46,249 nt of DNA from a virus. The position numbers were made by a program, and so were the translations under genes. The notes under the pieces are model-generated. The model had not been told where the DNA came from, made no database searches, and saw only the letters and a program-made list of their open reading frames with translations. Below are positions 20,262 through 44,730 of this stretch, piece by piece. The stretch spans positions 1 through 46,249 of IMG/VR virus record IMGVR_UViG_3300018481_000033; one strand, given 5' to 3'. Within the stretch, counting starts at the first letter, position 1, and each line of letters opens with the position of its first letter.

Positions 20262-20279
20262 CGCCGGGCAAGATCCCCC
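20262..20279 (-). promoter_or_regulatory. GGGGGATCTTGCCCGGCG element, site S5
   Basis: This exact 18-base word (minus strand) is also found at 22453-22470 and 25354-25371. Here it directly follows the stop of the gene ending at 20279 and ends about 28 bases before a GTG start. Candidate late promoter, processing site or recombination junction. Confidence 0.5.
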
Positions 20280-21145
20280 TAGCCGATTGGGAAGGTGACC
20301 GGGCAGGCAGGTGGGCGGGGCGGCGTGGTCACCGGCGGAAGCTCCCCGGAACAGGCATTCATCTTGATGGCGGCCGCATTGCCCGGGAGATACGACACCG
20401 GCGCCGCCGCGTCGTCGATGACGACTTCCACCAAGGAGCTGATGTGATCGGTGAACGCCCCCACGCCGATCTTCGCGTGGTGGAGGAAGCCCACATGATT
20501 GATGCCCGTGCGCTCGATCTGGAGATGACAGCTCACGGGATCCGTACCCGCCGCATACCGGAGCCAATAGTGTTTCGTTGAGGTGGGATAGAAGACCCCG
20601 CCAACCAGGCCACCCAAACACTCGAAGGATTGCGTCGTCGTGTGCGTCCCCGCTAAGACCGACACATTGTTGACGAGGAACTCGTAGGTGATCGAGGCGT
20701 GGGTCGGAAACGAAAAGCGGAACTGGAGCGCGTGGATCCTGCCGTCCCGGACGAAGACGCCCGGCGCCGACGTCCCAATGACCAGCGTTCCACCCGTCGG
20801 ACTGTTGGCTCGGTAAAACGTGAGCGACCCGTCCACATTGAGTTGCAAGACCGAGAGAAAACTCCGATTCGAGCTGCGCCCGGCTACCCCATCCTTACAG
20901 TTGAACTCGGCGAGGTTTCGGGAAAAATCTTCGCCACTGACGTACAAGTACCCGTACTGCCAGCGAATCGTCCCTTCGTGTAATTCCGTGAGGTACGTCG
21001 CGGCGGCGAGCCGCGCCGTGCTGCCCCGTGAACAGGTGAGGGCATTCAGTCGATCAATCCCCCAACCCGGAATGAGGGTGACGGTGCCTGTCAGCACTTC
21101 AAAGAAGGCTAACGACTCCATCCGCGAGGAATAGATCACCGCCAT
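20279..21145 (-). CDS. Lectin-like (LamG/ConA-type) virion protein (288 aa)
   Basis: The start MAVIYSSRMES at 21145 has GGGGGACAC just upstream. The body is beta-rich with a jelly-roll signature: VDGSLTFYRANSPTGGTLV, then DGRIHALQFRFSF and ITYEFLVNNVSVLAG. This resembles the two neighbouring proteins at 23077-24180 and 24192-25313. The C-terminus ends in PPACPVTFPIG, a tag related to those of nearby genes. Base composition is visibly less GC-rich than that of its neighbours, suggesting recent acquisition. A surface decoration or receptor/polysaccharide-binding role is inferred. Confidence 0.6.
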   Translation of the reverse strand: MAVIYSSRMESLAFFEVLTGTVTLIPGWGIDRLNALTCSRGSTARLAAATYLTELHEGTIRWQYGYLYVSGEDFSRNLAEFNCKDGVAGRSSNRSFLSVLQLNVDGSLTFYRANSPTGGTLVIGTSAPGVFVRDGRIHALQFRFSFPTHASITYEFLVNNVSVLAGTHTTTQSFECLGGLVGGVFYPTSTKHYWLRYAAGTDPVSCHLQIERTGINHVGFLHHAKIGVGAFTDHISSLVEVVIDDAAAPVSYLPGNAAAIKMNACSGELPPVTTPPRPPACPVTFPIG

Positions 21146-21153
21146 GTGTCCCC

Positions 21154-22425
21154 CTAGTCGTTGGGGTCGATCGGGAAGTCGACCGGACAGAACCGCGGCG
21201 GGTGGACGATGATGATCGTCGGCCCCCGCAGGGCAAGGCCCCAATGGAAGCCGTTACTGACCGCGTTGTTGAACGGGGTCGCCTGGACCGTGATCGCGTC
21301 GCCGGACGCGAAGTCGACGTCGGCCTGCACCTGCCCCGTGACCTCCATATCCTGGATGGTGAGCGTGATCGGCGTGTCGGTGCCCGACCGGCGCAGCATG
21401 TAGACGGTGCCGCGGCCGGGGCTGGGCGGGCCGGCGCGGCGGACATACAGCCCCGCGGCACGCAGCCCCGCCGGGCCGATGTGCGCCTCCCCGTGGGATT
21501 CGGTGGTGACGAGCTGGTCGCAGCGGGGCCACTTCCAGTCGGGGCCGTCGGAGCGGATGGCGTCGTTGCTGCCGCCGCACAGCATGTACATCCCAGCGGT
21601 CGTCGGGGTGAACGCCACGCTCGCCGCGACGTGCGCGAGCGCGGCGGGCCCCGGGCTGCCGGTGCGGGCGAGGACGAGGTCGACCAGGTCGGTCAGGGCG
21701 AGCGGCAGGCTGAACGCGGAGAAGGCGTGGATGGCCGGGTCGGGGAGCGTGCAGGCGGTGTCGACGGTGCCGCCGGTCCCGTCCTGCGTCACGCCGTTCT
21801 TGCGAACCCACGCCACCCACGCCCCGCCCCCTGGGCCCGCCGCGAAGGTCTTCAGGTCCAGCCGCGTGATCGCGCCGGGGGCCGCGCAGATCGAGTAGGT
21901 GTTGCTCTGCACGGGGCCGGGGTCGGAGCCGTAGGACATCCACTCGCCGTTGCCGAGCGCCCCGCCAATCCCCCGCTTGCCGACCGAGGGGACAGACCCG
22001 CCCGTCGTATACGCCGTGATCCCGTAGGAGGCCACGGCGCCCTCGAACTCCAGGCAGGTACTGAAGTGGACGAGACCAGGAAAGTTCTGCTGTGTGCCCG
22101 CGATCCGATAGCAGACGTCATCGCCGGCCGCGACGGCGACCGCATCGCCCGTGTTGGCGGCCAGCGCGGCGCCGGCGGCGAGCGACACGGTCAACGCCGT
22201 CGCGACGCCGTTGACCAGCAGCGTCGCCGTGAGGGCCGGATGCGGCACGTTGCAGCCGATGACCAGGTGGCGGAACGTCCCCGCGACCGACCAGGGGTGC
22301 TTGGCGGCAGCGGCACTGAAGGTCACCGCATACGCCGCCTCCCCGAACCCGCCCGTGACGGCGAGGTGCGAGACCGACGCGCCGTAGAACACCCCGTGAC
22401 TGAGGTGCGGAATGATCTGGATCAC
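21154..22425 (-). CDS. Beta-rich virion protein with two similar halves (423 aa)
   Basis: A GTG at 22425 is the only reasonable in-frame start after the preceding in-frame TAG. No ribosome site is seen, and site S4 lies 37 bases upstream. Both halves look like beta-sandwiches rich in Ala, Gly and Thr (ATLLVNGVATALTVSL in one, PITLTIQDMEVTGQVQADV in the other). The C-terminus ends FCPVDFPIDPND, a tag shared with adjacent genes. It sits in a cassette of lectin-like proteins, so a role on the virion surface or fibre is likely. Confidence 0.55.
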   Translation of the reverse strand: MIQIIPHLSHGVFYGASVSHLAVTGGFGEAAYAVTFSAAAAKHPWSVAGTFRHLVIGCNVPHPALTATLLVNGVATALTVSLAAGAALAANTGDAVAVAAGDDVCYRIAGTQQNFPGLVHFSTCLEFEGAVASYGITAYTTGGSVPSVGKRGIGGALGNGEWMSYGSDPGPVQSNTYSICAAPGAITRLDLKTFAAGPGGGAWVAWVRKNGVTQDGTGGTVDTACTLPDPAIHAFSAFSLPLALTDLVDLVLARTGSPGPAALAHVAASVAFTPTTAGMYMLCGGSNDAIRSDGPDWKWPRCDQLVTTESHGEAHIGPAGLRAAGLYVRRAGPPSPGRGTVYMLRRSGTDTPITLTIQDMEVTGQVQADVDFASGDAITVQATPFNNAVSNGFHWGLALRGPTIIIVHPPRFCPVDFPIDPND

Positions 22426-22452
22426 GGCAGTCGAGTCTGTCGAGAACGCCCA

Positions 22453-22470
22453 CGCCGGGCAAGATCCCCC
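22453..22470 (-). promoter_or_regulatory. GGGGGATCTTGCCCGGCG element, site S4
   Basis: Second exact copy of the 18-base word, immediately after the TAG of the repeat protein (22471-22473) and upstream of a GTG start at 22425 that has no ribosome site. Confidence 0.5.
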
Positions 22471-23067
22471 CTACTCGACATCGGGGTCGATCGGCAGGAC
22501 GCCCGGGCAGGCGCTGGTGCGCGGCGGGCGGGTGGTCGGCGGGCGCCTAGTCCACAGCTCGACGATCGCCTGCGTGGTGTGCACCACCGCGCGCTGCCCG
22601 CCCCAGACCTCGACGATCGCATGGGTGACGCGCGCCGGGACGGGCGGCACGGTCCACAGTTCGACGGCGACCTGGGTGGCGCGCAGGGGGATGGGCGTCC
22701 AGGTCCACAGCTCAATCGCGACCTGGGTGGCGCGGGTGGCGGCGGGAGCGGCGGACCAGGCTTCGACCGCGAGCTGGGTGACCCGCAGCGCCGTCTCCGG
22801 CGGGGACGTCGACAGCAGCTCGACGACCGCCTGCGTCACGGCGGCGGGGGTGGCCGCCCCGACGGTGGGCGTGAGTAGCTCGACGACGCTCTGTGTGGCG
22901 CGCGCCGCGGCGAGCGGCCGGCTGATCGTTTCGGTGAGCGCCTGGGTGACGCGCGCGGCCGCGAGGGGCTGGGTGAGCGTCTCGACGACCGCCTGGGTGA
23001 CGCGCCCGTCGGCCCGCGCAAGGCTCAGGACCTCGACGACCGCCTGGGTGACGCGCCCGTCGGCCAT
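22471..23067 (-). CDS. Tandem-repeat protein, about ten RVTQAVVE units (198 aa)
   Basis: Nearly the whole protein is built from about ten units of 15-21 residues with the core R(V/A)TQ(A/V)(V/A)VE(L/V)(L/W). Examples are RVTQAVVEVL, RVTQALTETI, RATQVAIELW and HTTQAIVELW. Late units favour tryptophan after the core and early ones leucine. Each unit should give one beta-strand, so a solenoid or beta-stack is plausible. The end TSACPGVLPIDPDVE carries the CPxx(F/L)PIDP tag of its neighbours. Similar RVTQ or RVSQ repeats occur in other phage proteins of unknown role. A fibre or surface function is inferred from location. Confidence 0.65.
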   Translation of the reverse strand: MADGRVTQAVVEVLSLARADGRVTQAVVETLTQPLAAARVTQALTETISRPLAAARATQSVVELLTPTVGAATPAAVTQAVVELLSTSPPETALRVTQLAVEAWSAAPAATRATQVAIELWTWTPIPLRATQVAVELWTVPPVPARVTHAIVEVWGGQRAVVHTTQAIVELWTRRPPTTRPPRTSACPGVLPIDPDVE

Positions 23068-23076
23068 CCCAGGACT

Positions 23077-24180
23077 CTACGAGGTCTTGCGGTAGCCGAA
23101 CTCCGCGGCGTTGAAGTCGGCCTCGATCCACGCCGCGCCGGTGCCAGGGTTGGTCTGGACGATCTGCAGACCGTAGGCGTAGCTGGTCGAGGGAGAGAAG
23201 TTCGCGCCTGGGTAGTCGACACCGCCGTGGCGAATCACGGGCGCGACGGTACACACACCCGCGTCCATCTTCTTCAGGGCGAGGCAGTGCTGCACGCCGT
23301 AGATCGTCGCCCCCGGGAGCGGCGCATCCTGCATGACGAAGGTGTCAGTCGCGCCCACCGTCGCCGTCGTGTTGTGGTCGGTGTCGTCGTTGGGCGCGGC
23401 CTCGTCGACGGTCAGCGCGTTATCACTGCCGGTGGAGGGCGTCCACGCGGACGAGGCGCCTTCGGCGGTGGGAAAGCGCGCATCGACGCGCACGTCCCCG
23501 AGCGGGCCATTCCACGGTGCCGGGCCGGAGCCGTCGAGCAGATAGACGTCGTCGAAATCCCAGGTATTCGGTGTGGCCGTCGACACGAGTTTCCCCAGGA
23601 CGACCTCGTCCCACGTCGACGAGGCGGTGGCGCGCGTATTCTGGTTCGTCAACGCAATCCACGACACGCCATTGACCAGCACGTCGACCGTCCCCACCGT
23701 GGGGTCGATCACCGCGACCAGCTCGATGTAGTACGTCACGCCTGCCGCCAACGCTAGCGCGCTGGGAGCACCCAGGAGTGTGGTCCCCCGATAGACACTC
23801 AGCGTCCCGTTGGTGTTCGGACGCAGCACGAGCTGGTTGGCCGAGGCTTGCCGAATCAGGGCGAGGGAGGTGCCCCCACTGGAGGTTTTGGACGTGTTCG
23901 GGTCGAAGCTCGTATTGACCTGCAGCTGGGTAAAGCTCCCGGCGCTCTGGGTGAACGAAAACCCGCACACACAGGTATTGCCGACCGCCGGCACGACCTT
24001 GCCGAACGCCCGACAATCCGAGTTACCCGCGGCCTGCCGCAGCCCTGCCGACGCCCGGCGGCCCGCGCCCGCGGTAATCACGGGGCTCACCGAGCCGCCC
24101 GCCGTGTAGATCGACGACCACTTCTCGACCAAATCCACGGTCGCGTAGTGGTCGAAGCTATCCATGAAGAGCAACGCCAT
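23077..24180 (-). CDS. Lectin-like (LamG/ConA-type) virion protein (367 aa)
   Basis: GAGGCGGAGACCG precedes the ATG at 24180. The start MALLFMDSFDHYATVD introduces a beta-sandwich with GTLSVYRGTTLLGAPS, YYIELVAVIDPTVGTVDVLV and WDFDDVYLLDGSGPAPW, the strand pattern of LamG/ConA-like folds. The second half has GATDTFVMQDAPLPGATIYG and ends AEFGYRKTS. It is clearly paralogous to the upstream neighbour, which has LLFMDGQAHY, IDPTVGTFEI and GQFGVIKIT at matching points. It is likely exposed on the virion and may bind glycans. Confidence 0.7.
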   Translation of the reverse strand: MALLFMDSFDHYATVDLVEKWSSIYTAGGSVSPVITAGAGRRASAGLRQAAGNSDCRAFGKVVPAVGNTCVCGFSFTQSAGSFTQLQVNTSFDPNTSKTSSGGTSLALIRQASANQLVLRPNTNGTLSVYRGTTLLGAPSALALAAGVTYYIELVAVIDPTVGTVDVLVNGVSWIALTNQNTRATASSTWDEVVLGKLVSTATPNTWDFDDVYLLDGSGPAPWNGPLGDVRVDARFPTAEGASSAWTPSTGSDNALTVDEAAPNDDTDHNTTATVGATDTFVMQDAPLPGATIYGVQHCLALKKMDAGVCTVAPVIRHGGVDYPGANFSPSTSYAYGLQIVQTNPGTGAAWIEADFNAAEFGYRKTS

Positions 24181-24191
24181 CGGTCTCCGCC

Positions 24192-25313
24192 TCAGGTGAT
24201 CTTGATGACGCCGAACTGCCCGGCGTTGACTTCCGCGTCGGTGAACTTCGCCATCGTCGCCGGGTTGAGGTCGTAGGGCTGCGTGAGGTAGCGGTCGTAG
24301 GTGATGCTGGAGATGCCCTGGGTCGGGCCGACGTAGTCGGTACCGCCCTGGTGCACGACCGGCGCGATCGCCGCGCCGCCATCACTGTCCTTGCGAGCCA
24401 GGATGCAGGCGTGCGCGCCCTTGACGAGAGTGCCTGGCGGGAGGTCCTCGAAGTGATAGAGGTCGGTGATGCCGGGGGCCGTCGTGGTCACGTAGGTGGC
24501 GTCGTCGTCGGGCGCGGGGTCGTCGTTGGTCGCGTCCCAGTTGGCGCCCACGTTCGGCGTCCAGCCGGTGGCGCTGCCCGGGCCGTTGGGCAGGATGGTC
24601 TCGACGATCCCGTCGCCGAGGAAGTCGCTGACGTCGTCGGGGTCGGCAGCGACGCGGTCGGCGAGGTAGAGGTCACACATCCGCAGCACGACCACGTCGC
24701 CGCTGCCCGGCCGCGCCGCGAGCAGGTTCACGCCGGTCCAGATGCCAATCTCCTCACCGTTGCGACTGCCCTTCGTGTTGCCGGTGAACTGCATGATCGG
24801 GACGCCGTTGGCGCGGATCTCGAAGGTGCCGACGGTCGGGTCGATGAACCACTTGCATTCCAGGAAGCACCAGGCGCCGGACTGCAGCCCTTCGATCGAC
24901 TCGGCGAGCTTGTCGAAGCTGCTGGTGAACCGCGAGCGCCAGAGACTCAACGTCCCCGTCGGGTTGAGATAGAGGCCGACGTGCGCCGCCGACCCTTCCA
25001 TCAGCGTGAAGAACTCCTCGCCACTCGGCATGACGCCCGCGCCGCTCTCGCCCACTTCCTGCAGGTCGTCGACCTTGACCGCGAAGCCGCAGACGCCACT
25101 CGTGGTGGGCGTCCACGGACCCAGGCGCGTCATCAGCGGTGAGATGCCGAGGTGCCCGGCATTGTTCGCGCCGACCGTGACGCGCTTGATGCAGTTGCCA
25201 AACCGCCCTTCCGCGACGACGGACCACGTACAGCCTTCCACGGTCACGACCGAGTACTTCATCCCGATCCGCGTCGAGTCGTAGTGCGCCTGCCCGTCCA
25301 TGAACAGCAGCAT
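24192..25313 (-). CDS. Lectin-like (LamG/ConA-type) virion protein (373 aa)
   Basis: The start MLLFMDGQAHYDS is preceded by GAGGGGTGGACCTGAG. It shares layout and many motifs with the next gene: TGTLSLWRSRFTS, FLECKWFIDPTVGTFEIRA, MCDLYLADRVAADPDD, and a second half with DLYHFEDLPPGTLVKGAHAC and an FGVIKIT ending. Two adjacent paralogs suggest gene duplication followed by divergence, as in receptor-binding or decoration proteins. The function is inferred from fold and context. Confidence 0.7.
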   Translation of the reverse strand: MLLFMDGQAHYDSTRIGMKYSVVTVEGCTWSVVAEGRFGNCIKRVTVGANNAGHLGISPLMTRLGPWTPTTSGVCGFAVKVDDLQEVGESGAGVMPSGEEFFTLMEGSAAHVGLYLNPTGTLSLWRSRFTSSFDKLAESIEGLQSGAWCFLECKWFIDPTVGTFEIRANGVPIMQFTGNTKGSRNGEEIGIWTGVNLLAARPGSGDVVVLRMCDLYLADRVAADPDDVSDFLGDGIVETILPNGPGSATGWTPNVGANWDATNDDPAPDDDATYVTTTAPGITDLYHFEDLPPGTLVKGAHACILARKDSDGGAAIAPVVHQGGTDYVGPTQGISSITYDRYLTQPYDLNPATMAKFTDAEVNAGQFGVIKIT

Positions 25314-25314
25314 C

Positions 25315-25614
25315 TCAGGTCCACCCCTCGTCCGAGTCTGGGTCGAAGAACGGCGCCGGGCAAGATCCCCCCGGCACGCTCACCGCCGGCTCCAGCACCG
25401 CCAGCACCGCCGGCAGCGGCTCGCAGGCCCGCGCCGCGGCGTAGGTCAGCTCCGCCCAGGTGAGGTCCTCCGCCGCGAGCGTGCCGTCGTCGATCGCGCA
25501 CACCACGCCCGGCGCGACGAAGTCGGGCAGGGTCGCGGCGAGGCGGCCGGTGCCCAGGCGCAGGATGGCCAGGCGCGCGGGCAGCTGGGCGGGGTCGCTG
25601 CCGGTGATCGCCAT
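25315..25614 (-). CDS. Small protein with CPxxFxDPD tail (99 aa)
   Basis: A short helical and beta body (RLAILRLGTGRLAATLPDFV, LTWAELTYAAARACEPLP) ends GGSCPAPFFDPDSDEGWT. The tail resembles the C-terminal tags of the three tagged genes further downstream. The 18-base S3 element lies within the codons for GGSCPA. The start at 25614 follows the tiny membrane-peptide gene closely, and no ribosome site is evident. I recognise no family. It may be a small virion or fibre accessory protein. Confidence 0.5.
   Translation of the reverse strand: MAITGSDPAQLPARLAILRLGTGRLAATLPDFVAPGVVCAIDDGTLAAEDLTWAELTYAAARACEPLPAVLAVLEPAVSVPGGSCPAPFFDPDSDEGWT
25354..25371 (-). promoter_or_regulatory. GGGGGATCTTGCCCGGCG element, site S3
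   Basis: Third exact copy of the 18-base word. Unlike S4 and S5 it lies inside coding sequence, near the 3' end of the 99-residue gene and about 50 bases upstream of the next start (25313). Confidence 0.4.
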
Positions 25615-25621
25615 CGAGGAG

Positions 25622-25708
25622 TTACCGCCGGCCCCCGCGCGCGGCGGCGCTGCCGATGAGTATCAGCACGATCACGGCGACGAGCAGGAGCAGCAGCGGG
25701 AACGTCAT
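25622..25708 (-). CDS. 28-residue single-pass membrane peptide
   Basis: The reading frame MTFPLLLLLVAVIVLILIG followed by SAAARGGRR is one hydrophobic helix with a basic tail, ending in TAA. Its ATG overlaps the upstream stop (ATGA), a classic translational coupling signal. The positive C-terminus predicts it inside and the N-terminus outside. Tiny single-helix proteins of phages can act as pinholins or regulators, but nothing here proves lysis. The GGRR ending recurs in three other small proteins of this genome. Confidence 0.5.
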   Translation of the reverse strand: MTFPLLLLLVAVIVLILIGSAAARGGRR

Positions 25709-25974
25709 CGGGGTGGCCCGGTGCCGTTGGTCGAGGGGGGTGCGACGGCGAGCGTGCGTGTGGCCGGGTCGAACTGGAGCGAGACGTCGGCGTCGAACAC
25801 GTAGCGCTCGGCGAGCTGCTGGAGCAGCGTCGCCTTCGCCTCGGCCGCTTCGAGCACCGGCAGCCGGGCGCGCGCGAGGGCCAGCTCCGCGCTGGCGGTC
25901 GCGCGCCGTTCGATGGCGACGATGGCGGCGAGCGCGCGCGCCTCGTCCTCTGTCAGCGTGACCGGAAGCGACAT
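25705..25974 (-). CDS. Small helical protein (89 aa)
   Basis: I chose the ATG at 25974 because AAGGAGA lies just upstream. A longer frame to 26223 overlaps the fibre gene and is not needed. The product (MSLPVTLTEDEARALAAIVA...) is mainly helical with heptad-like Ala/Leu/Glu, then a beta segment DVSLQFDPATRTLAVAPP. It follows the fibre gene, so it might assist fibre assembly. That is only position-based. Confidence 0.6.
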   Translation of the reverse strand: MSLPVTLTEDEARALAAIVAIERRATASAELALARARLPVLEAAEAKATLLQQLAERYVFDADVSLQFDPATRTLAVAPPSTNGTGPPR

Positions 25975-25993
25975 GCAGTCTCCTTCTCGCGAA

Positions 25994-28900
25994 CTAGCTG
26001 GCCGACCGATATGTGACCGAGCCGTGAAGGTACGTGCCAGAGGCATAGTTATTCGCGTGCATTTGGGTGAGGCCACCGCCGGGACCAGCGGTCGCGTACA
26101 GGTACATGCGGAAACTCCAGGGAAACAACAAGCCCACGATGGTGGAAACCGCCACCGCCAGCCCACCCCAATACATCGTGCAGGACCAGTACCCACCATC
26201 TGCTTGATGCGGGAAATCGTCAATCACCAACACGTCGTCCGTCGCACCCTTGGCCGCAATGCCAATGGAGAAGCTGACGGTGACCATGCGACCCACCTTG
26301 GTCCAAGTGCCCGACCGCGTGTTGTAGGTCTGCCCGGTTTCCCCGGCGGCACCGCGCAAGTACGGCAACCACTCGCCATTGGTGCCCAGACGCGCATCAG
26401 GGACAGTCCCACTAGTCAGATATGAAGCGTTCAGTGGAGTTGTATTTAAGCCTGCATCCGCCTGCACCGTTGCATAGGAACGAACGGCATTCGTGAATGT
26501 ATTCCCGCTGAGATGGGTCTCACCATTGAAATAGTTTGTACCGCTGAAGTTATTTCCATTTCTAAGTGCAACATTGGCTGACAGGCGCGCATCGGGGACA
26601 TGCCCGGCGATCAGCGAACCGGCGATAGACAGATTGCCTGCTCGGTCAACAACGAGCAAAGAGCCAACAGTGTTCTCATAGATGTGAAACCCATTGGCGT
26701 AGCTGATTAACCGGAAAGCCGCGTTGTAGCTCAGTTCATGCAGGTTAATCCCCGCCGTGCCTGTGCCTTGAAAGACGTGCTCGCCGCCTGAGAATGTATT
26801 CGCTGGGCTCTTCAACGCGACGTTCGCGGGTAGCCGAGCATCAGGAATCGTGCCCCCCGTGAGGTACGAGGCGTTCAACGGTGTCGCGCCAAGTCCAGCG
26901 GCGGTCAGGACTCCGTTTCTGGCGATGGTGACGTAGCCCGTCGCGACCGTGATGGCGTCATTGACCGCTTGAATGAACAGGTCACCCGGCCCGGCCTGAT
27001 GCACGAGAATTTCCCACAACCCCTGATCGACCGCGACGCCCGTGTTGTGCAACTGCAGACGCGGGTACGGCGTGTTCGTCAGTCGGACGTTGCCGGTCAC
27101 GTTCAGGCCGCCGGCGTCGATGCGCGCGATCGGCGTCGGGCTGAAGACCGTCCCCGCCGCGCCGGGACTCGGGCCGCACGCGAACACGATGGACCCCGGT
27201 GCCGCCTGCACGGCGCTGTACGCACTGTTCGCGAGGTTCTTCCAGCCGACGCCCCCGTGATGCACGACGTTGTGCATCAAGTACGTGCCGTTGAGTGCTT
27301 CCCCCGGCCACGACTGAATCACGCCCCGGTCGCCGAACTGCGCGTAGCCTTGCGCCTGCGGCACGTTGATCGCGGGGAGGCCGTAGTTCGCCCCGTTGAC
27401 GACGACCGAATTACCGACGACCAGCGAGTTCGCCACGCTCATCTGGTTATTCGCTTTGCTGAACGACGCGATGTTGACCCAGCCGCTTTCCACGTCGTCC
27501 TGCCCGTACACGATCAGGTTCTGCGACTGCGACATCAGCCGGTACTGCGACGTGTTCGCCGGTTGCGTCGTGTCGAGCAGATAGAGACTCGCGTTCGCGT
27601 TGCGGATGTACTGCGGCTGCGAGAAGACGTTGTTGACGTTCAGCCACGCATTGTTCAGCAGGGCATCGCTGCCGCCGGGTTGGTGCGTCGCCTGGTGCGG
27701 GACCAGCGCCGCGGGGTCGCCCGGGTCGCCCTTCGGGCCTTCTGGGCCTGGCACGCCTTGGATGCCCTGCGGCCCCTGGATGCCCTGGACGCCTTGCGAC
27801 CCGGGGACACCGGGTTGCCCTTCGGGTCCGGTCGCGCCGGTCTCCCCGATGGGGCCTTCCGGGCCGGTCGCCCCAGGCTCGCCGGGGTCGCCGGGCTCGC
27901 CTTGGATGCCCTGCGGACCCTGAGGACCTTCCGGGCCGGGCGGGCCTTGCGCGCCAGGCGGGCCCTGCTCCCCGACCGGGCCTTCGGTCAGGACCAGCAC
28001 CGTGATGCGCGTGTTGTGCGACATCGAGCCGTTGCCGCCAGGCCCGTCCTGCGAGAGGAAGGTGACCTGGACGATGAACCAGTCGCTCATCTCCACGACG
28101 CCGTCGATCCGCCACTCCTGGTGGGTGGTGGCGAGGTCGGTGTCCTGAATCACCAGCCGGGACGCCGGCGGGGTCATCCCGAAGAGCACATGCGCGTCGA
28201 AGCCGTCGGTGGTGAGCCAGTCGACGTAGAGCGCGGTCGCCTCCTGCTGGACGACAGCGTTCCAGCGGAGCATCCCGGTGCCGGGGTCCTGCGACTGCTG
28301 CGACTGGGTGTCCGCCCGGTAGGGGAAGGCGCTGGACGAGGGGGCCGACTCGCCTTGCGGGCCCTCGGGGCCGACCTCGCCCTGGATCCCCTGGATCCCC
28401 TGGATGCCCTGGATGCCCTGGGGACCCTCGGGCCCGGTGGCCCCGACGGCGCCGGGCACGCCCTGGATCCCCTGCGGGCCGAGCGGGCCGGTGGGGCCTT
28501 CGGGGCCGCCGGGGCCAGGCACGCCTTGCGTCCCCTGCGGTCCCAGGGGGCCGACCGGGCCGATGGGGCCCGTCGGGCCGGTGGGGCCAATGGGGCCGGT
28601 CGGGCCGATCGGACCGGTGTCGCCCTCTGAGCCGGTCGCGCCCGTCGGCCCCTGGAGCCCCTGGGGGCCTTCTGGGCCGGTTGGACCGGTGGGGCCCAGG
28701 GGACCGGCGGGGCCTTCGGGTCCGGGGTCGCCTGCGGGCCCTGGCGACCCGGGGGCCCCCTCCGCGCCGGCGGGGCCGACCTCGCCAGGCTCACCCTGGG
28801 CGCCGGCCGGTCCGGGTAGCCCGGTGGGGCCTGGGGGGCCAGTCGCGCCGGTGGGGCCAACCGGGCCGAGGTCCCCCTCCGGGCCTGGGACGCCCTGGGG

Positions 28901-29662
28901 GCCAGGCGGGCCAGCCGGACCGGTGGGGAAGGGACCGACATCCACCCAGTCGCCCGCCGCGTCGTCCCAGACCCAGACGTGGTCGGTGTCGTCGGCGATC
29001 CAGCAGTCGCCCGGCTCGCCGGTCGGCGGGAGGTCGCCCGCCGACGGGACGGTGCCGCGCAGGGTCAGGGAGCGACCGGGCGGGCCTTCCGGGCCCTCGG
29101 GGCCGACCGGGCCGAGGTCGCCTTGCGGCCCCTGTGGACCGGTCGCGCCGGTCGGGCCGGCGGGCCCCGTGGCGCCGGTCGCCCCCGTGCCGCCGGTGGC
29201 GCCGGTCGGGCCGGCGGGGCCTGGTGCACCCGCAGGGCCCGCGGGGCCGGTCGCGCCGCCCGGGCCCACCGCGAAGGTCCCGTCCGCCCGGAGGAACAGC
29301 AGGGTCCCGCCGGGGTAGCCACTGAGCGCGGTGACCGGCAGCGGGTCGGTGCCGCCGGCGCGGTGGGTGGCCTGGTGCGCCGGGAGGTCGCTCGGCGAGA
29401 GCGGCTTGAGCACCACGTTCGGGGAGAGCCGCGCGTCGGCGAGGGTCCCGCTGGTGATCTGGCTGGCGTTGAGCGGGGTGGTCCCCAGGCCGCCGGGGGC
29501 GGTGAGGACGCCGCCAATGGTCAGACTGGCGGCGAAGATCGCGTCGACGTCATCGTAGATGGAGTCGATGAACGCCTTGTTGACGATGGTGCCGCTGGTC
29601 AGGTCTCCGGTGTCGTCGCGGAGGGTGTCGAACCAGGTGCGGGAGAGCGTCGTTGGAGCCAT
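25994..29662 (-). CDS. Collagen-like tail fibre/spike (1222 aa)
   Basis: GGGGGAG precedes the ATG at 29662. The N-terminal 130 residues probably attach to the virion. Three Gly-x-y collagen-like blocks follow (about 135-197, 247-438 and 561-650). They are separated by a small [16 protein letters not shown] domain and by a globular domain (about 440-560). The C-terminal half is a beta-rich tip with repeats such as [15 protein letters not shown] (four related copies in the protein) and two HQATHxxGGxD motifs flanking the collagen part. The tip is coded by DNA noticeably richer in A+T than the rest, consistent with exchange of the receptor-binding end. Trimeric fibre function is well supported by family knowledge. 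Confidence 0.9.
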
Positions 29663-29677
29663 GCGCGCTCCCCCGGG

Positions 29678-29983: not shown

Positions 29984-29992
29984 GGCTGCCCT

Positions 29993-30280: not shown

Positions 30281-30301
30281 GGGGTCTCCTCAGTGGCTAG
30301 C

Positions 30302-31033: not shown

Positions 31034-31046
31034 GCGCGTGTCGGGA

Positions 31047-31373: not shown

Positions 31374-31380
31374 GGCGTCC

Positions 31381-35533: not shown

Positions 35534-35536
35534 GGC

Positions 35537-36071: not shown

Positions 36072-36081
36072 CGAGAATCTC

Positions 36082-36270
36082 CTAGCGCTTCCTGAGCGGC
36101 CGCGACGGCTGTGCCGGTGGCGCGGGCCGGGTCGGTGCCTCACGGTGCCACTTAGCCCCGAGCGTCGGGGTCTTGGTGCCGGTGGCGTAGAACACGCGCG
36201 CGCCCTTCTCGGCGCCGTACTGGGCCTGCATCCGGGAGAGGACCTGATCGCCGGAGCGCGTGAGGGGCAC
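36082..36270 (-). CDS. Small conserved-type phage protein (62 aa)
   Basis: A GTG start at 36270 is preceded by no ribosome site but lies 36 bases from the S2 element. The first half, MPLTRSGDQVLSRMQAQYG followed by EKGARVFYATGTK, matches a pattern I know from small phage proteins near the portal (sG-x-x-V-L-x-x-M ... YG-x-x-K-G ... VFYA). The tail is Pro/Arg-rich. The function is unknown. Confidence 0.65.
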   Translation of the reverse strand: MPLTRSGDQVLSRMQAQYGAEKGARVFYATGTKTPTLGAKWHREAPTRPAPPAQPSRPLRKR

Positions 36271-36300
36271 GCCCAGTAGCGTCAGGGGAGTTGTGCCGCT

Positions 36301-36315
36301 TGTCTAGATCCCCCT
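36301..36315 (-). promoter_or_regulatory. AGGGGGATCTAGACA element, site S2
   Basis: This 15-base word (minus strand) is identical to the one at 44716-44730. A CCCCC...GGGGG hairpin-capable sequence precedes it and overlaps its G run. It lies between the stop of the gene at 36330 and the GTG at 36270. Candidate late promoter or processing site. Confidence 0.5.
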
Positions 36316-36329
36316 GGCGCGCGCGGGGG

Positions 36330-36665
36330 CTAGAGCTGGTCGGGCCGGAGCAGGAAGCGGGGAGTGGCGGGGCCGAGGAAGGCGCCGCGGGTGTTGTACT
36401 CGAACCACTCGACCGCCTCGTCCTCGTCCATGCCCTGGGCGACGAAGCCGGCGAGGACCTGCGCCTGGTCGTAGAGCACGGCGGGCTCCTGGTCGAAGCC
36501 CTCGACCACGCCGACGATGGCGGCGTCGAACACCTCCGGCGGGTCGAAGAAGATCAGCTCGACGTCGTGGTCCTCGGCCCAGAGGGAGAGCTGCGCCCGG
36601 ATGTCCGCGACGGGCGGCTCGGCGACGAGCTTACTTGTCGCTTTCGGTGATCGTCGTTCGGCCAT
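36330..36665 (-). CDS. Conserved-type phage protein (111 aa)
   Basis: Its first 35 bases overlap the end of the portal gene, and GAGAAGAGCG precedes the ATG. The acidic protein has VFDAAIVGVVEGFDQEPAVL and ends with the characteristic DEAVEWFEYNTRGAFLGPAT, which I recognise from small hypothetical phage proteins next to portals. The function is unknown. Position suggests a portal- or packaging-linked role. Confidence 0.65.
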   Translation of the reverse strand: MAERRSPKATSKLVAEPPVADIRAQLSLWAEDHDVELIFFDPPEVFDAAIVGVVEGFDQEPAVLYDQAQVLAGFVAQGMDEDEAVEWFEYNTRGAFLGPATPRFLLRPDQL

Positions 36666-38775: not shown

Positions 38776-38781
38776 GGCGGG

Positions 38782-39000
38782 CTACTCGACGATGCTGTCA
38801 GGGTCGTTGAAGACGACCGCTTTGATCGCCCACATGGCGGTCTGCTCGTTGTTGGTCAGCGCGACGCTGCGGTGCCGGCTGTTGGGACACAGTTCGAGGA
38901 TCTTCCGCTCGACCAGCGAGAACAGCTCGCGCAGCTCGGTGATGCGCGCGAGCCCGTCCTCGCTCGGGCGGTGGTAGGCGTAGGGCTTGTCGATCGGCAT
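38782..39000 (-). CDS. Acb2/Tad1-hairpin-like protein (72 aa)
   Basis: The product is a short two-helix protein. The first helix is LARITELRELFSLVERKILE. Then PNSRHRSVALTNNEQTAMWA and IKAVV continue as the second helix. The pattern P-x-S-R-x-x-S-x-A-L-T-x-x-E-x-A-x-M-W-A is the hallmark of the Acb2/Tad1 hairpin domain, whose known members sequester cyclic nucleotide signals of CBASS and Thoeris defence. Length fits Acb2-type proteins. Function in this phage is inferred. The gene is between the portal and a TIG-domain gene. Confidence 0.6.
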   Translation of the reverse strand: MPIDKPYAYHRPSEDGLARITELRELFSLVERKILELCPNSRHRSVALTNNEQTAMWAIKAVVFNDPDSIVE

Positions 39001-39003
39001 CAG

Positions 39004-39537
39004 TCAGTCCCCGTCAGGTGCAGTGGGCTTGGTCCGGGTCTTGGCGCGGCTGGTACTCGCAGCGCCCTCGGCGGTAAACGTGAACGTCAGCGCCTCGCTC
39101 ACCGTGCCGTCGGGGTTCCGCACCGTGACCGGCAGCGGCACCGAGGGCGCGGTCCACACCGCCATGTTCACGCCGGTGGTCAGCTCGGTGTCGCTGACCG
39201 CGGTGGTCGGCTCGGTGTAGCCGTTGAAGACGATCACCGCGCCCGGGGCGAAGCCGGTGCCGTGGACGTGCAGCGTGAACGGGGGCACGCCGATGACGGC
39301 GGTGTCCGGGTCGAGCGACGTCAGCACCGGGGGCGCGGGCGGCGGCGCTGCCGGGCCGAGGTCCTGGTAGTGGGTCGGGGTGGTCACGATCGGCTGGTCG
39401 TCCGCGCCGACCCAGCGGCCGAGCGTCGGGTGCCAGCGGCCGACGACTTGCCGCCCGGCGGTCACGCCGAGGAGGAGGTCGCGCCCGTCGGTGCGCCCGT
39501 TCGCCGCCGCCTGATGAATGGGAAGCCAGTCTGCCAT
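39004..39537 (-). CDS. IPT/TIG-domain protein (177 aa)
   Basis: I use the ATG at 39537 (MADWLPIHQAAANG). An open frame extends further upstream but overlaps the zinc-ribbon gene. Residues 1-75 include RDLLLGVTAGRQVVGRWHPT, and a beta domain follows with LTSLDPDTAVIGVPPFTLHV, GTGFAPGAVIVFNG and PVTVRNPDGTVSEALTFTFT, the strand order of IPT/TIG immunoglobulin-like domains. Such domains often decorate phage heads or fibres. Surface binding is an inference. Confidence 0.75.
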   Translation of the reverse strand: MADWLPIHQAAANGRTDGRDLLLGVTAGRQVVGRWHPTLGRWVGADDQPIVTTPTHYQDLGPAAPPPAPPVLTSLDPDTAVIGVPPFTLHVHGTGFAPGAVIVFNGYTEPTTAVSDTELTTGVNMAVWTAPSVPLPVTVRNPDGTVSEALTFTFTAEGAASTSRAKTRTKPTAPDGD

Positions 39538-39541
39538 GGGG

Positions 39542-40030
39542 TTACTCCTTCGCGAGGTGGTCGAGGGCCGAGGGGGTGGCGTCGCTGACGCCAGGGCCGT
39601 AGTCCACGTTGGGCTCGTCCGCGCCCGAGCGCTTGATCGAGGCCGCGTGCTTCTTGACGAACGCCGGGTCGGGTTGCGCGCCGCCCTGCCAGCCGGGATG
39701 GAGCGCGTGCACGTCGTGGTTCGAGCGGTCGTTCGAGTACCGCCGCCAGACCAGCGGCTGGCCTTCCTGGTTCCGGTAGTCCCGCTGGCTCTGCTCTTCG
39801 ACCTGGCGGAGCTTGTGGAGCGAGTCGACGAGCACCGGGCGGTTCTGGCCGTCGCGGGTCTCGAACTCCTGGAACGGCTCGTAGGCGTCCATCGCGCCGA
39901 CCTGCGGGATCCAGGCCATCGGCCGGTCGCAGTGGGTCGGCGGGGTGGCCTGCGCGCCCTCGACGACCGAGCGGTAGACGTCGACCGAGACCTGGCCGCA
40001 GGTCTGGCAGAAGTAGTCATGGAGCGGCAT
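39542..40030 (-). CDS. FmdB-type zinc-ribbon protein (162 aa)
   Basis: The start MPLHDYFCQTCGQVSVDVYR and CDRPMAWIPQ fit a zinc ribbon similar to FmdB-type regulators or ribbons found in many phages. The rest is hydrophilic, with WRRYSNDRSNHDVHALHPGW, and has no enzyme motif. The start overlaps the upstream stop (TGATG), and the neighbour upstream is another small ribbon protein. The role is unknown. Confidence 0.7.
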   Translation of the reverse strand: MPLHDYFCQTCGQVSVDVYRSVVEGAQATPPTHCDRPMAWIPQVGAMDAYEPFQEFETRDGQNRPVLVDSLHKLRQVEEQSQRDYRNQEGQPLVWRRYSNDRSNHDVHALHPGWQGGAQPDPAFVKKHAASIKRSGADEPNVDYGPGVSDATPSALDHLAKE

Positions 40031-40161
40031 CAGCTCCGCTCCTCAACGTAAATCTGGTGGCAGTGCTCCTTCGGGCAGATCCAGAACACGCTCCCCAGCC
40101 AGTACATCCGGTGCCCCTTCGGGCAGGACAGCGGTGTGTCGTGCTGCCAGTAGCGGCCCAT
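40030..40161 (-). CDS. 43-residue zinc-ribbon protein
   Basis: The reading frame MGRYWQHDTPLSCPKGHRMY ... FWICPKEHCHQIY has Cys/His residues spaced like a compact zinc ribbon (SCPKGH ... ICPKEHC). Its TGA overlaps the start of the next gene as TGATG. This arrangement supports it as real. The function is unknown. Confidence 0.65.
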   Translation of the reverse strand: MGRYWQHDTPLSCPKGHRMYWLGSVFWICPKEHCHQIYVEERS

Positions 40162-40163
40162 GG

Positions 40164-40727
40164 CTAGCTCCCTCCCCGGTAGAAGATCTCATCGCGAATC
40201 CGGTCGACCACCAGGCGAATCTCCTGCTCGATGGTGTGCCCGCGCTTGGTCGCCCGGTAGGCGATCTCGCTCAGCTGCCCGGGCGTGAACTCCAGGCGCA
40301 CGTCGCCGATGTGAATCGCGGCGAGCCGCTCGACCGCCTGCACCAGCACGGTCGGGATCTGCGTGTTGCCGACGCCGAGGGTCTGCTCCAGCCGCGCGCA
40401 GTCGGCCGGCGAGAGCACCACGCCGATCGGCGCCACCAGGTCGTACTCGAGCCTGAAGCGCGCCGGCGAGAGCACGTCGAGGGTGTGCACGCCGTTGATC
40501 ACCGCGTAGTCGCCGGGCTCGGCGTGCGCGGTGCGGCCGTCGACCAGCAGGATGTCGGCCGGCGCGGTGAAGGCGTAGGCCTGCAGGCCCTTGGCGGCGG
40601 GGCGCACCGCGACGCGGGTGAGCGCGGCCGCCGGCGCGTGCGCGATCACCTCAGGCTCTCGCGCGGTCGTCGAAGAAGAGGCCGGCGTCGTCGCGGCCTT
40701 GATCGAGATCTTCGGGGAGGGCGACAT
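40164..40727 (-). CDS. Unidentified protein downstream of terminase (187 aa)
   Basis: I chose the ATG at 40727 because GGAGGT lies upstream. It overlaps the 3' end of the terminase gene by 77 bases. The first part is Ala/Pro/Thr-rich and disordered. The centre is beta-rich with ILLVDGRTAHAEPGDYAVIN and RFRLEYDL, and the C-terminus is helical with TPGQLSEIAYRATKRGHTIE. The GDYAVIN core resembles small beta-barrel domains of unknown role. No family could be assigned. Confidence 0.55.
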   Translation of the reverse strand: MSPSPKISIKAATTPASSSTTAREPEVIAHAPAAALTRVAVRPAAKGLQAYAFTAPADILLVDGRTAHAEPGDYAVINGVHTLDVLSPARFRLEYDLVAPIGVVLSPADCARLEQTLGVGNTQIPTVLVQAVERLAAIHIGDVRLEFTPGQLSEIAYRATKRGHTIEQEIRLVVDRIRDEIFYRGGS

Positions 40728-42963
40728 GGCTACTGACCTCCGGGTCATCCACTTCCTCCGCGGTCAGCGCGGAGTTGCGGTAATCGGGAATGGGGGTGTC
40801 ACGCTCCAGCGCCAGCTGGTCGAGCGCGTGCTTGCGGCGGCGCCGCTCGGCGATCGGTTCGACCTCGCCGCCGCTCATGCGCCAGGCGACGTAGAAGCCG
40901 ATGGCACTGGCCATCACCGCGTCGTCGTGCTGGCCGCGCGCGGCTTCGGCCTCGCCGATGGTCGACATGGTGACGAAGTGGCGCAGCTCGCCGCGGGTGA
41001 TCGGTGAGTTGAGGACGTAGTCGGGCAGCTCGCTGAGCGTGTCGAAGGTGGTGATGGCGCCGTAGAAGCTGGCCAGGAGCAGCGGGCGCGTGCGCGGCGA
41101 GGTCACCCAGCCGATGCGCGTGGAATACCGCCGCTCGGGCGAGGCGGCGTCCGCGTACTCCCAGACGTAGAAGTGGTGATAGCCCAGGTGCAGCTGCAGG
41201 GTGTCCTGGGTCGCCAGCCCGTGGTTGTTGGTCTCGATCGCCGCGAGCGCTTCGATGCCGTCGCTGTCGGTGTAGTAGCGGCCGATGGCGTCGCAGACGA
41301 AGGCGAGCGCTTTCGGGTCGAGCCGGTTGCTGACGTACTGGGCGACCTGCTCGGCGGGGTCCTCCATGGTCGGCTGGCGGATCACGTCGATGACCGAGTA
41401 GTCGAGGCCGAGCCCATCACTCACATCGACGCTGAGGACGTAGTGGCGGCTGCCGCGGACGCGCGGATACTCCCAGATGGCCAGGCCCGCGTTGCGGAGG
41501 TTGGGGAGGTCCTTCAGCTCCGCCGGGTCGAGGCGGCGGAAGCCGTAGCCGGGCGGGACCGGGTGGGCCTCGGCTGCGAGCGGCGAGCCACTCCCTGCCA
41601 CGCGCGGAGCCAGTGGCGGATATGGTCGAGGGCGCGGACCACTGCCGCCAGGTCCGCGACCAGCGCCTGGTGTGCCGCCAGGAGCCGTGTCGCGTCGGAG
41701 CTTGGCGATGTCGAGCGCAGGCTCGACGGCCCAGACGTCCTGGAGCGGGCGGAGGCTGCCGGCGCGGTCGATCGCTTCGAGCTGTTCGAGGGTGAAGATC
41801 GAGCGGCCCGCGTACTGGAAGCACTCCTGGTCATCGGCCGGATACTCCTTCAGAAATTTATAGAGCTGGCCCTTCGACTCGTAGAAGCGCCGGGTGGTCT
41901 CGTACCAATACAGCTGGTCGCGGGTGAGGGTGACCGTCCGGCCGCCGAACCAGCGCGGGGAGTCGCGCTCGTTCTTGACCGCGTGCGCCAGGGTGGAGGC
42001 GGACGGGACCCAGGGCGTGGGCGCGGGCAGGGAGTACTTGGTCGGCTCCGCGCTCCACGGGATGAACACGTTGTGGAAGCGGCCGACACCCTCGCCGGTC
42101 GCCAGCCAGTGACGGTGCCACCAGTCGCCGGCGAACTCCGCGGTCGCCTCGTAGAGGACCAGGGTGTCGTTGGCGTAGGGGATGGCCGGGAGGAGCGCGG
42201 TGTCGAGCTGCTCGGGGTTCTCCCAGGTGGGCAGCTCGCTGATGTGCACCACCGAGAAGGTCTGGCCGCGCCCGATCGCGCCCTTCGAGCCCTCGACGCC
42301 GGAGGTCGCCTGCAGCGCGCCGCGGGTCGACTTGCCCCAGGCGGTCTTGAGGAAGCACTGATTGACCAGCGACAGCTCACGGTTCTTGTTGAAGTAGACC
42401 TTGGCCGGTTTCAGGAACCAGGGCAGCTGGTCGTAAATACGGACCACCATGCGGAACAGATACCCGGCCTGGTCCTCGACGTCGGCGCCGCTCAGGGCGC
42501 GGATGTGCGTGCGGGTGACCAGGCGGTGCGCGACCAGCGCCTCGCTGAGGGTGGAGACGCCGAGCTGCCGGGCCTTGAGGATGTTGAGGAGGAGACCGTC
42601 GGGCGAGCCGCTGTCGGCGTTGGCCTTCTCGATGCGCGCGAGCTGGTCGAGCACCAGCTGCTGCGACTCCCAGAGCGGCGAGAGCCGGCGCAGCCCGTGG
42701 CCCTCCTCGTCGATCCAGCAGAAGCGCTCGGCGAACCACGGGAAGTCGTAGACCACCCGCAGGCGCGCGGTGGCGACAAAGGTCTGCTCCTCCTCGATGA
42801 GCGCGCGGCGGGGCGTGCCCGACTCGTCGACCGCCTGCATGACGCTGGCGGTGAGGGTGGCCGCGTCACTGACCGAGTAGGCCGGCATCCCGGACGGGAA
42901 CACCGCGCGGAACTGCGCGTTGATCTCGGCTTCGTCCTGCGCGATCAGGTCCGGGTGATACAT
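40651..42963 (-). CDS. terL: Terminase large subunit (770 aa)
   Basis: The ATPase has a Walker A-like KARQLGVST (130-138), Walker B-like SVVHISEL (237-244) and a YEATAE coupling segment (271-276). The RNase H-like nuclease has D513 (SVDVSD), D558 (VCDAIG) and HDD at 679-681. A Pro/Gly-rich stretch (about 427-470) lies between them, but codon positions there favour the +1 frame, which reads a more natural helical LLAAHQALVADLAAVVRAL; see finding. The first residues are helical. The protein packages DNA with the small subunit encoded two genes upstream. Length is longer than average for this group because of that linker. Confidence 0.9.
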   Translation of the reverse strand: MYHPDLIAQDEAEINAQFRAVFPSGMPAYSVSDAATLTASVMQAVDESGTPRRALIEEEQTFVATARLRVVYDFPWFAERFCWIDEEGHGLRRLSPLWESQQLVLDQLARIEKANADSGSPDGLLLNILKARQLGVSTLSEALVAHRLVTRTHIRALSGADVEDQAGYLFRMVVRIYDQLPWFLKPAKVYFNKNRELSLVNQCFLKTAWGKSTRGALQATSGVEGSKGAIGRGQTFSVVHISELPTWENPEQLDTALLPAIPYANDTLVLYEATAEFAGDWWHRHWLATGEGVGRFHNVFIPWSAEPTKYSLPAPTPWVPSASTLAHAVKNERDSPRWFGGRTVTLTRDQLYWYETTRRFYESKGQLYKFLKEYPADDQECFQYAGRSIFTLEQLEAIDRAGSLRPLQDVWAVEPALDIAKLRRDTAPGGTPGAGRGPGGSGPRPRPYPPLAPRVAGSGSPLAAEAHPVPPGYGFRRLDPAELKDLPNLRNAGLAIWEYPRVRGSRHYVLSVDVSDGLGLDYSVIDVIRQPTMEDPAEQVAQYVSNRLDPKALAFVCDAIGRYYTDSDGIEALAAIETNNHGLATQDTLQLHLGYHHFYVWEYADAASPERRYSTRIGWVTSPRTRPLLLASFYGAITTFDTLSELPDYVLNSPITRGELRHFVTMSTIGEAEAARGQHDDAVMASAIGFYVAWRMSGGEVEPIAERRRRKHALDQLALERDTPIPDYRNSALTAEEVDDPEVSSHVALPEDLDQGRDDAGLFFDDRARA

Positions 42964-42967
42964 GGCG

Positions 42968-43189
42968 CTAGGGCTGCTCCAGCGGCTCGAAGTTCTCCCG
43001 GAAGTAGGCCGCCGACACCAGCCACTGGTCGTCGTGGTTGACCGGGTTGCGCGCCACCATGTCGCCGGGCTGGGGCGAGCCGTTCTCGGTGTCGACCGGG
43101 GACACCGAGACGTTCGACAGGTCCTCGCCGGGGACGTAGGGCCGCAGCTCGGCGTAGGCGCGCCGGCGATACCGCTGGAACGCAGACAT
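42968..43189 (-). CDS. Small conserved-type phage protein (73 aa)
   Basis: The sequence MSAFQRYRRRAYAELRPYVP ... PQPGDMVARNPVNHDDQWLV ... YFRENFEPLEQP is a compact protein whose GDMVARNPxNHxDQWLV core I recognise as a recurrent phage motif. It lies between the terminase subunits and shares its start with the end of the upstream gene (43189). The function is unknown. Confidence 0.65.
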   Translation of the reverse strand: MSAFQRYRRRAYAELRPYVPGEDLSNVSVSPVDTENGSPQPGDMVARNPVNHDDQWLVSAAYFRENFEPLEQP

Positions 43190-44064
43190 CACAGAGGCTC
43201 CTCCTGCTGATTCAGCTCGTCGGGGGGCTCGCGCTCGTCCTCGGGCAGCTCCACCGGCGGCGCCTCGAACGGGAGCGGGACGTCCTCCTCGGTGAGGACC
43301 ACCGGCGCGGGCGTGCCCGCGTTGCGGCGGCGTCCGGGGCTGAAGAGCAGCTCGCCGACCGCCTGCTGGAGCTGTTCGAGCGCGCCGGCCGTGGGAGCGC
43401 TGAGCGCGCTGGCGCTGGCGGCGACCGCGGTGGTCTGGGTGACCGTGACGCCTCCGCCGCCCTTCCGGGTGAGCGCGCCGAGGTCGAGCGCCAGCTTCTG
43501 GCGGTCGAGGTCCGGCTCGGTGAGCACCTGGCCGGTCCCGGCGCAGGTGAGGCACGGCGCGGCGTCGAGCCCGGGGGACACGCCCTGGCAGGCGGGACAC
43601 ACGCACGGCTGCGGCAGCGCACGGGTCATCACGTCGGCCACCACCGCGGGGAGCTTCGCCGCGATGGCGTGGGTGGCCTGGAGGTGCGCCTTGACCAGCA
43701 GCGCCCGGCGATAGGCGACAAACAGGTCCGCGAGAGTCAGGCCGGCCATCACGCAGAGCCGCCGCAGGCTGTAGCGGCGATAGCGCGGGTCGAGCAGCAG
43801 GTCGACGACCATCTCGACTTCGGGCGCGGTGGAGGCCACCGTGAGCACGTCAATGAAGCCCCGACGGCCGCCGACCTGCTCCGCGAACGCCTCGATCGCC
43901 TCGGCATTCAGCTCCAGGTCGGTCTCGCTCACCTGCACCTCGGGCGCGCGGACGCCGGCCGGGACCAGCGCCCCGGTGCGCGGCGGACGGCCCAGGCGCT
44001 TGCCGGAGGCGGTGAGACGCGGCACGCGCGGCAGCGTCGCGGATCGGGGTGGCGGGGTCGGCAT
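43189..44064 (-). CDS. Terminase small subunit-like protein (291 aa)
   Basis: I use the ATG at 44064 (MPTPPPRS) with GGGAGC upstream. A TTG start at 44079 is less likely. A helical core (RRYSLRRLCVMAGLTLADLF and a following helix) resembles the DNA-binding part of small terminase subunits. A DnaJ-like zinc motif (CVCPACQGVS ... CLTCAGTG) follows, then a helical and acidic C-terminus. It is encoded just upstream of the large subunit, as expected. Confidence 0.7.
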   Translation of the reverse strand: MPTPPPRSATLPRVPRLTASGKRLGRPPRTGALVPAGVRAPEVQVSETDLELNAEAIEAFAEQVGGRRGFIDVLTVASTAPEVEMVVDLLLDPRYRRYSLRRLCVMAGLTLADLFVAYRRALLVKAHLQATHAIAAKLPAVVADVMTRALPQPCVCPACQGVSPGLDAAPCLTCAGTGQVLTEPDLDRQKLALDLGALTRKGGGGVTVTQTTAVAASASALSAPTAGALEQLQQAVGELLFSPGRRRNAGTPAPVVLTEEDVPLPFEAPPVELPEDEREPPDELNQQEEPL

Positions 44065-44068
44065 AGGG

Positions 44069-44302
44069 TCAGCTCCCAAAGCGTGAGCGAATGATCCGGT
44101 GCCCGAGCATCGGCGCGGCGATGACCCCGGCGACCTGGGGCGGGTGCTGGTGCGGCAGGACCACCGGGGGCGGCTGCGCCTGGAGCCAGCGCGCGACCTC
44201 CGCCGGGTCGGGCGTGGTCACCGCGGCAGGCAACGGCGCCGGCGCGGGCGTGGGTGCGGCTCGCCGACGCGCGCGACGCGGGCGTGTCCGGCGCCGGGTC
44301 AC
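44069..44302 (-). CDS. Arg/Pro-rich small protein (77 aa)
   Basis: A GTG start (44302) has GGAAGGGG upstream and overlaps the preceding stop (GTGA). The N-terminal half is Arg-rich and the rest Pro-rich, with VARWLQAQPPPVVLPHQHPP. The basic start suggests DNA or terminase contact. No family could be assigned. Confidence 0.55.
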   Translation of the reverse strand: MTRRRTRPRRARRRAAPTPAPAPLPAAVTTPDPAEVARWLQAQPPPVVLPHQHPPQVAGVIAAPMLGHRIIRSRFGS

Positions 44303-44679
44303 CGGGCCCCTTCCGTCAACCGCGCCAGCTCCGCCTCGCGCGTGGTGAGCCGCTCAGCCAGGTCGTGCGTGCTCTCGTCGGCGAGGTACTGGAGGACCTC
44401 CTCGTCCGAGGGCGTGTGCCCGGTGGCCCGGTGCGTGCGCTCGATGTAGTCATCCGCGAGCGCCGCGTGCGCCGGGTCGAACGCCGTCCACCCGCTCTCC
44501 CGGGCCACGCGCGCCGCGTCGGTGGGGGGCGGGGCCGGTGGCGCGAAGGCCTCCGCCAGGCGCCCCAGCAGGACGTTCTGGCGGTCGAGGGCCTGGCCAA
44601 TCGACGCCAGGTCGCGACTCAGGCGGCGGAGCAGGAGCGCGGCGGTCAGGCGGCGCAGCGGGCGGAAGGGAGCGCGCAT
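44299..44679 (-). CDS. First late-region gene, helical protein (126 aa)
   Basis: The protein has a basic start (MRAPFRPLRRLTAALLLRRL), then helices with LDRQNVLLGRLAEAF and a charged C-terminus containing DEEVLQYLADESTHDLAERL. No ribosome site precedes the ATG at 44679. The S1 element lies 37-51 bases upstream, so this is probably the first gene of a leftward transcript. The function is unknown. Confidence 0.6.
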   Translation of the reverse strand: MRAPFRPLRRLTAALLLRRLSRDLASIGQALDRQNVLLGRLAEAFAPPAPPPTDAARVARESGWTAFDPAHAALADDYIERTHRATGHTPSDEEVLQYLADESTHDLAERLTTREAELARLTEGAR

Positions 44680-44715
44680 CGGGTGCCGGGAGGATACGCA
44701 CCAGCCCTGGGGGCC

Positions 44716-44730
44716 TGTCTAGATCCCCCT
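44716..44730 (-). promoter_or_regulatory. AGGGGGATCTAGACA element, site S1
   Basis: Same 15-base word as at 36301-36315. A CCCCCG-CTCG-CGGGGG hairpin (44731-44746) lies directly upstream on the minus strand. The first late gene starts at 44679. Best candidate for the leftward late promoter. Confidence 0.55.

Follow-up and report, generated by a model that had tools for sequence, protein, structure and literature searches.

Probable late promoters with an upstream G-tract

The five copies of the GGGGGATCT(A/T)G element analyzed here are very probably -35 regions, the upstream halves of late promoters for mostly leaderless mRNAs of virion genes. In the proposed promoter, a GGGGG-(A/G)(T/A)-C block precedes a -35 hexamer, T(T/A)GAC(A/G) or TTGCCC, which is followed by 17 nt and then by a degenerate -10 box, nAnnCT. 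The phages that carry these elements are an uncultivated soil phage group. The window, that is, the whole stretch of DNA analyzed, is a complete IMG/VR record of 46,249 bp with a GC content of about 70%, in which the virion genes, including the terminase gene, run leftward and the replication genes run rightward. Genes were called with a simple codon-usage caller made for this analysis.

Other features of the window were also recorded. A 998-aa UDG-polymerase A fusion (uracil-DNA-glycosylase domain plus DNA polymerase A; 1502-4498, plus strand) is conserved across the group, and a 1222-aa protein (25994-29662, minus strand) contains a long collagen-like repeat at 27.7-29.3 kb. A tRNA-Thr(CGT) gene was found at 573-649 (minus strand), and a tRNA of the same type is also present in G005, G007, and G026.

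The five elements and their starts

According to the original prediction, the element occurs five times, exactly and always on the minus strand, which is the late strand, and every copy was recovered where it had been placed. The pattern GGGGGATCTWG has five exact copies in the window, all on the minus strand, where 0.04 would be expected, and none of 100 dinucleotide shuffles of the window attained five copies. The longer form GGGGGATCTTGCCCGGCG has exact minus-strand copies at 20262-20279, 22453-22470, and 25354-25371, with no further matches in the window even when three mismatches were allowed. The next-nearest copy of GGGGGATCTWG was a single site with one mismatch at 14481-14491; it lies within a coding region, like comparable coding matches in G003 and G009, and was not counted as a sixth element.

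The starts downstream of the elements are GTG 20234, GTG 22425, ATG 25313, GTG 36270, and ATG 44679, which lie 45, 45, 58, 44, and 50 nt, respectively, from the first G of the element; the earlier distances of 37, 37, 50, 36, and 42, for which the core was the reference point, agree with these values. Four of the five sites are intergenic, as had been noted, and the exception is P3, within the 3' end of an ORF (Table 1).

Table 1. Parts of the putative late promoters in the window and the genes below them
Feature	Position	Strand	Details
P1 (gene A) upstream half	44717..44729	-	G-tract 44729-44725; -35 TAGACA 44721-44716
P1 -10 box TATCCT	44691..44696	-	spacer 19
Gene A, first late gene, 126 aa	44299..44679	-	ATG 11 nt past -10 box
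P2 (gene B) upstream half	36302..36314	-	G-tract; -35 TAGACA 36306-36301
P2 -10 box GACGCT	36278..36283	-	spacer 17
Gene B, 62 aa, VPLTRSG, MPLTxSG family	36082..36270	-	GTG 7 nt past -10 box
P3 upstream half	25354..25371	-	G-tract; -35 TTGCCC 25363-25358; in 3' end of ORF 25315-25614
P3 -10 box CAGACT	25335..25340	-	spacer 17; ATG 25313 21 nt past box
373-aa protein below P3, phrog_2448	24192..25313	-	paralogous to 23077-24180, 29% identity
P4 upstream half	22453..22470	-	G-tract; -35 TTGCCC 22462-22457; abuts stop codon of 22471-23067
P4 -10 box CAGACT	22434..22439	-	spacer 17; GTG 22425 8 nt past box
Two-gene insert	20279..22425	-	423 aa at 21154-22425; 288 aa at 20279-21145
P5 (gene C) upstream half	20262..20279	-	G-tract; -35 TTGCCC 20271-20266; abuts stop codon of preceding gene
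P5 -10 box CATCCT	20243..20248	-	spacer 17
Gene C, 250 aa, VPYTTTTLA (MPYTTTTLA family)	19482..20234	-	GTG 8 nt past -10 box

Architecture of the proposed late promoters

The hexamer nAnnCT was found 17 nt past the -35 in four of the five window sites and 19 nt past it in the fifth. With a background of 0.65% per position and eight spacers allowed for, the probability of this register is about 7e-8. The spacers in the window thus fall within the 16-19 nt of sigma-70-type promoters, and in the relatives the register is fixed. A set of 55 curated sites from 25 related IMG/VR phages gave the consensus GGGGG-(A/G)(T/A)-C-T(A/T)GAC(A/G)-N17-nAnnCT, in which just two blocks are conserved, the G-tract with the -35, and the -10 box at the 17-nt register. 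The -35 hexamer in these sites is near TTGACA, either T(A/T)GAC(A/G) or TTGCCC. Set against the TAnnnT box of sigma-70-type promoters, the -10 box at the fixed register is weak: A at -11 and T at -7 are enriched, in 30 and 36 of 55 sites, but T at -12 was found in 8. A scan with a generic sigma-70 consensus did not call the late sites.

The early-strand promoters of the same phages were of the textbook type, TTGAC(A/G)-N16-19-TAnnnT (in summary form TTGACA-N17/18-TAnnnT). Of 36 such promoters, 29 have T at -12 and 2 have a G-run; at the late sites, the search itself required the G-tract. A palindromic sequence, ATGCATATGCAT / GCATATGC, overlaps many early promoters in G005, G007, G009, G012, and G026 (L078-L116) and is a candidate operator of a phage repressor.

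An action of the element in RNA, through antitermination, processing, or a hairpin, was also considered. In many sites the G-run is followed by C-rich DNA; however, C-runs of at least 4 stood beside the block in 21 of 55 sites and in the next 12 nt in 17 of 55, which is no enrichment. No conserved hairpin was detected, the Rfam matches consisted of one tRNA and nothing else, and the element lies upstream of the predicted transcription start. In addition, an RNA element would not be expected to hold a fixed -10 register. The processing or antitermination signal offered earlier as an option is thus not upheld, and we regard it as extremely unlikely.

Predicted leaderless starts

In four of the five window sites the start codon lies 7-11 nt past the -10 box. 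At that distance a leader with a ribosome site does not fit, so these four transcripts should be leaderless. Transcription would initiate about 7 nt past the -10 box, late in infection, and the first base of the transcript would coincide with the start codon or barely precede it, so that the mRNAs translated for most of these late genes would be leaderless. Among the 55 curated sites, a gap of 6-8 nt between the -10 box and the start was the commonest range (28 sites), in line with a distance of 10-14 nt from -10 box to start codon in leaderless genes. P3 would give a transcript with a short leader, unlike the other four. It stands farther from its start than the other elements, and it is the least certain of the five because the site also encodes a protein end, which is conserved in G023, where the matching site does likewise.

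The claim that most of these starts lack a ribosome site holds, and it is statistically strong across the relatives: Shine-Dalgarno cores were found at 20% of the starts below elements, in comparison with 62% of the other late starts (P 1.6e-9) and 68% of early starts, although P values on related sequences, here those of the window and its relatives, overstate independence.

Leaderless genes have been described as having TANNNT about 12 nt upstream of the start codon (PMC3160421). The proposed late promoters resemble those leaderless sigma-70-type promoters of Actinobacteria and Deinococcus-Thermus in that some 12-14 nt separate a -10-like box from the start codon and a ribosome site is absent. 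They differ in that most of them lack T at -12 and that they carry a G-tract and a -35 at a fixed 17-nt spacing.

Conservation in related phages

A search with TerL yielded 51 related viral loci, for which the whole records of 21 and later of five more were used. A position weight matrix scored 50 late-strand sites at 17 bits or higher and none on the opposite strand; a start lies 30-62 nt downstream of 44 of the 50. In divergent phages the element precedes three orthologous genes, A, B, and C, and the ortholog of gene A has it in main-clade relatives wherever the upstream DNA is present in the data. Genes that are not orthologous also have it upstream, one example being a PD-(D/E)XK nuclease gene (G007, at 55264). 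High-GC matches to two promoter patterns in IMG/VR all came from this phage group. Matches to the 15-mer in the low-GC viral contigs L057, L069, L070, L073, L075, and L076 look like chance and were set aside. Deposited phages provided only distant relatives of TerL, polymerase, and capsid, and no published description of the element was found in the open-access literature.

At two sites, G021 58693 and G002 21548 (numbered so that TerL is on the plus strand), the element is near-palindromic, GGGGGATCTAGACAAGATCCCCC in G021, and a start codon lies at leaderless distance on either side. This layout fits divergent promoters with one common -35 region. The same near-palindromic versions could be taken as binding sites for a repressor or other regulator over an ordinary promoter, with the G-tract turning the late genes off. 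The phages are also probably temperate, since the early region of G007 (L083, L084) encodes a phage integrase and an HTH_3 protein, which would suit such a regulator. However, the second half of the palindrome is missing at most sites, and the G-run accompanies a weakened -10 box, which fits activation better than blocking. We therefore consider a repressor site improbable and retain the promoter reading.

Proposed recognition of the G-tract

The G-tract would help to recruit RNA polymerase, standing in for the T lost at -12, and it would most likely act through a phage-encoded or phage-induced factor. That such a phage factor acts on the G-tract is the leading inference because the early and late promoters of one phage differ. 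In its full form the proposal is tentative: an undescribed phage factor, an activator or a sigma-remodelling protein, may read GGGGGATC upstream of the -35 while the host polymerase uses the T-less -10, and the arrangement may have arisen once, converted ancestral leaderless promoters driven by the -10 box into ones driven by the G-tract, and then spread to newly acquired genes.

The main alternative, which we consider rather unlikely, is that a host sigma factor alone reads the whole promoter, G-tract included, and that no phage factor takes part. No Sigma70_r2 domain at the Pfam cut-off is encoded in 17 records, and no gene family was found that every G-tract phage has and every outgroup lacks, both of which favor the host. 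On the other hand, these phages have canonical early promoters with no G-tract, and the strict full pattern gave just 5 scattered matches in the genomes of 84,980 prokaryote species, so use of the promoter by a host was not adopted. This near absence from prokaryote genomes supports the phage-specific late promoter suggested in the original prediction, as do the -10 box at a fixed register 17 nt downstream of the element, the conservation in relatives before orthologous and non-orthologous late genes, and the complete strand bias of the best-scoring sites. A TerL relative was also sought in GTDB genomes as a guide to the host, and none was found, which contrasts with the temperate-looking gene content.

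Family X (G007 44512-44946) was examined as a possible late activator. Nearly all G-tract records that cover the region have it, and the outgroups lack it. However, G037, in which a non-homologous cassette replaces it, has four exact elements, and the candidate was rejected. Family X comprises a 144-aa protein (L084:5512-5946, minus strand) and its orthologs, encoded beside a RecA-like ATPase gene, and TGTCATCA repeats surround its own promoter in G005 and G007. It is likely to be an exchangeable immunity cassette.

Evolution of the G-tract

The TerL tree shows all 26 G-tract phages as a monophyletic clade, set apart by a single branch with a support of 100/100. The outgroups have leaderless-type promoters at the same genes, mostly with the canonical T at -12 (TAAGCT, TAGGCT, TAGACT, TACCCT), and the G-run at these genes is absent, or short and weaker. 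The G-run and the T at -12 tend toward mutual exclusion (P 0.002 under a rule that ignores this T), a value that is indicative only because the sequences are related. The natural reading would be that the late promoters were leaderless ancestrally and that a single lineage moved recognition from the -10 box to the upstream G-tract. The G-tract thus appears to have arisen once in the group while the usual -10 box weakened.

Recombination and the two-gene insert

The three identical 18-mers had also been suggested to be recombination junctions between lectin-like cassettes; here they were considered as junctions between tail cassettes, in which case their likeness to promoters would be incidental. 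The copies have CGGCG in common beyond the block that is conserved in relatives, and two of them bound the genes for the 423-aa and 288-aa proteins (21154-22425 and 20279-21145), of which no relatives were found among the loci compared. Several relatives have a member of the 198-aa family (that of 22471-23067) immediately ahead of gene C. The insert (20279-22425, minus strand) is moron-like, flanked by identical promoter copies. However, nAnnCT occurs exactly 17 nt past all three copies though the DNA between differs, and the element is conserved before A, B, and C, genes that are fixed in place in the relatives. The part of the suggestion that concerns the bounded insert and the common unconserved bases therefore stands as no more than a side effect; junctions alone do not explain an element conserved at unshuffled genes, and we regard that explanation as very unlikely. 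Both may hold together, with the promoter copies also used as homology for cassette gain; an incoming gene would then get a ready-made late promoter.

Discussion

Late promoters of phage P2 that depend on Ogr have a conserved upstream block and weak core elements, and the Ogr site is a dyad. The promoters described here are alike in the upstream block and the weak core, but the Ogr site lies farther upstream and is dyadic, and no Ogr-type zinc finger gene was identified in this group. In the middle promoters of phage T4, a MotA box replaces the -35 and the -10 is canonical. There, as would be the case here, promoter recognition by the host is aided for one temporal class by an upstream block specific to the phage, but the present phages keep the -35 and have a weak -10. 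The T4 middle promoters need MotA and AsiA (PMC6024815). The Start-Associated Sequences (SAS) of cluster K mycobacteriophages, GGGATAGGAGCCC, lie at the position of the ribosome site in the non-structural half of the genome (PMC3203893). SAS and the present element are alike as short G-rich repeats at a subset of gene starts, mostly in one orientation and absent or rare in the host, but the element described here has another sequence, belongs to the late half, lies about 44-58 nt upstream of the window starts, and has a -10 box.

For this widespread group of uncultivated soil phages, the element is a sequence signature by which late genes can be located and start codons corrected. On a resolved tree and at the same orthologous genes, an upstream element is gained as the -10 box decays, which is promoter evolution in progress. 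The gain of the G-tract with the decay of the -10 box predicts an undescribed transcription factor and leaderless virion mRNAs.
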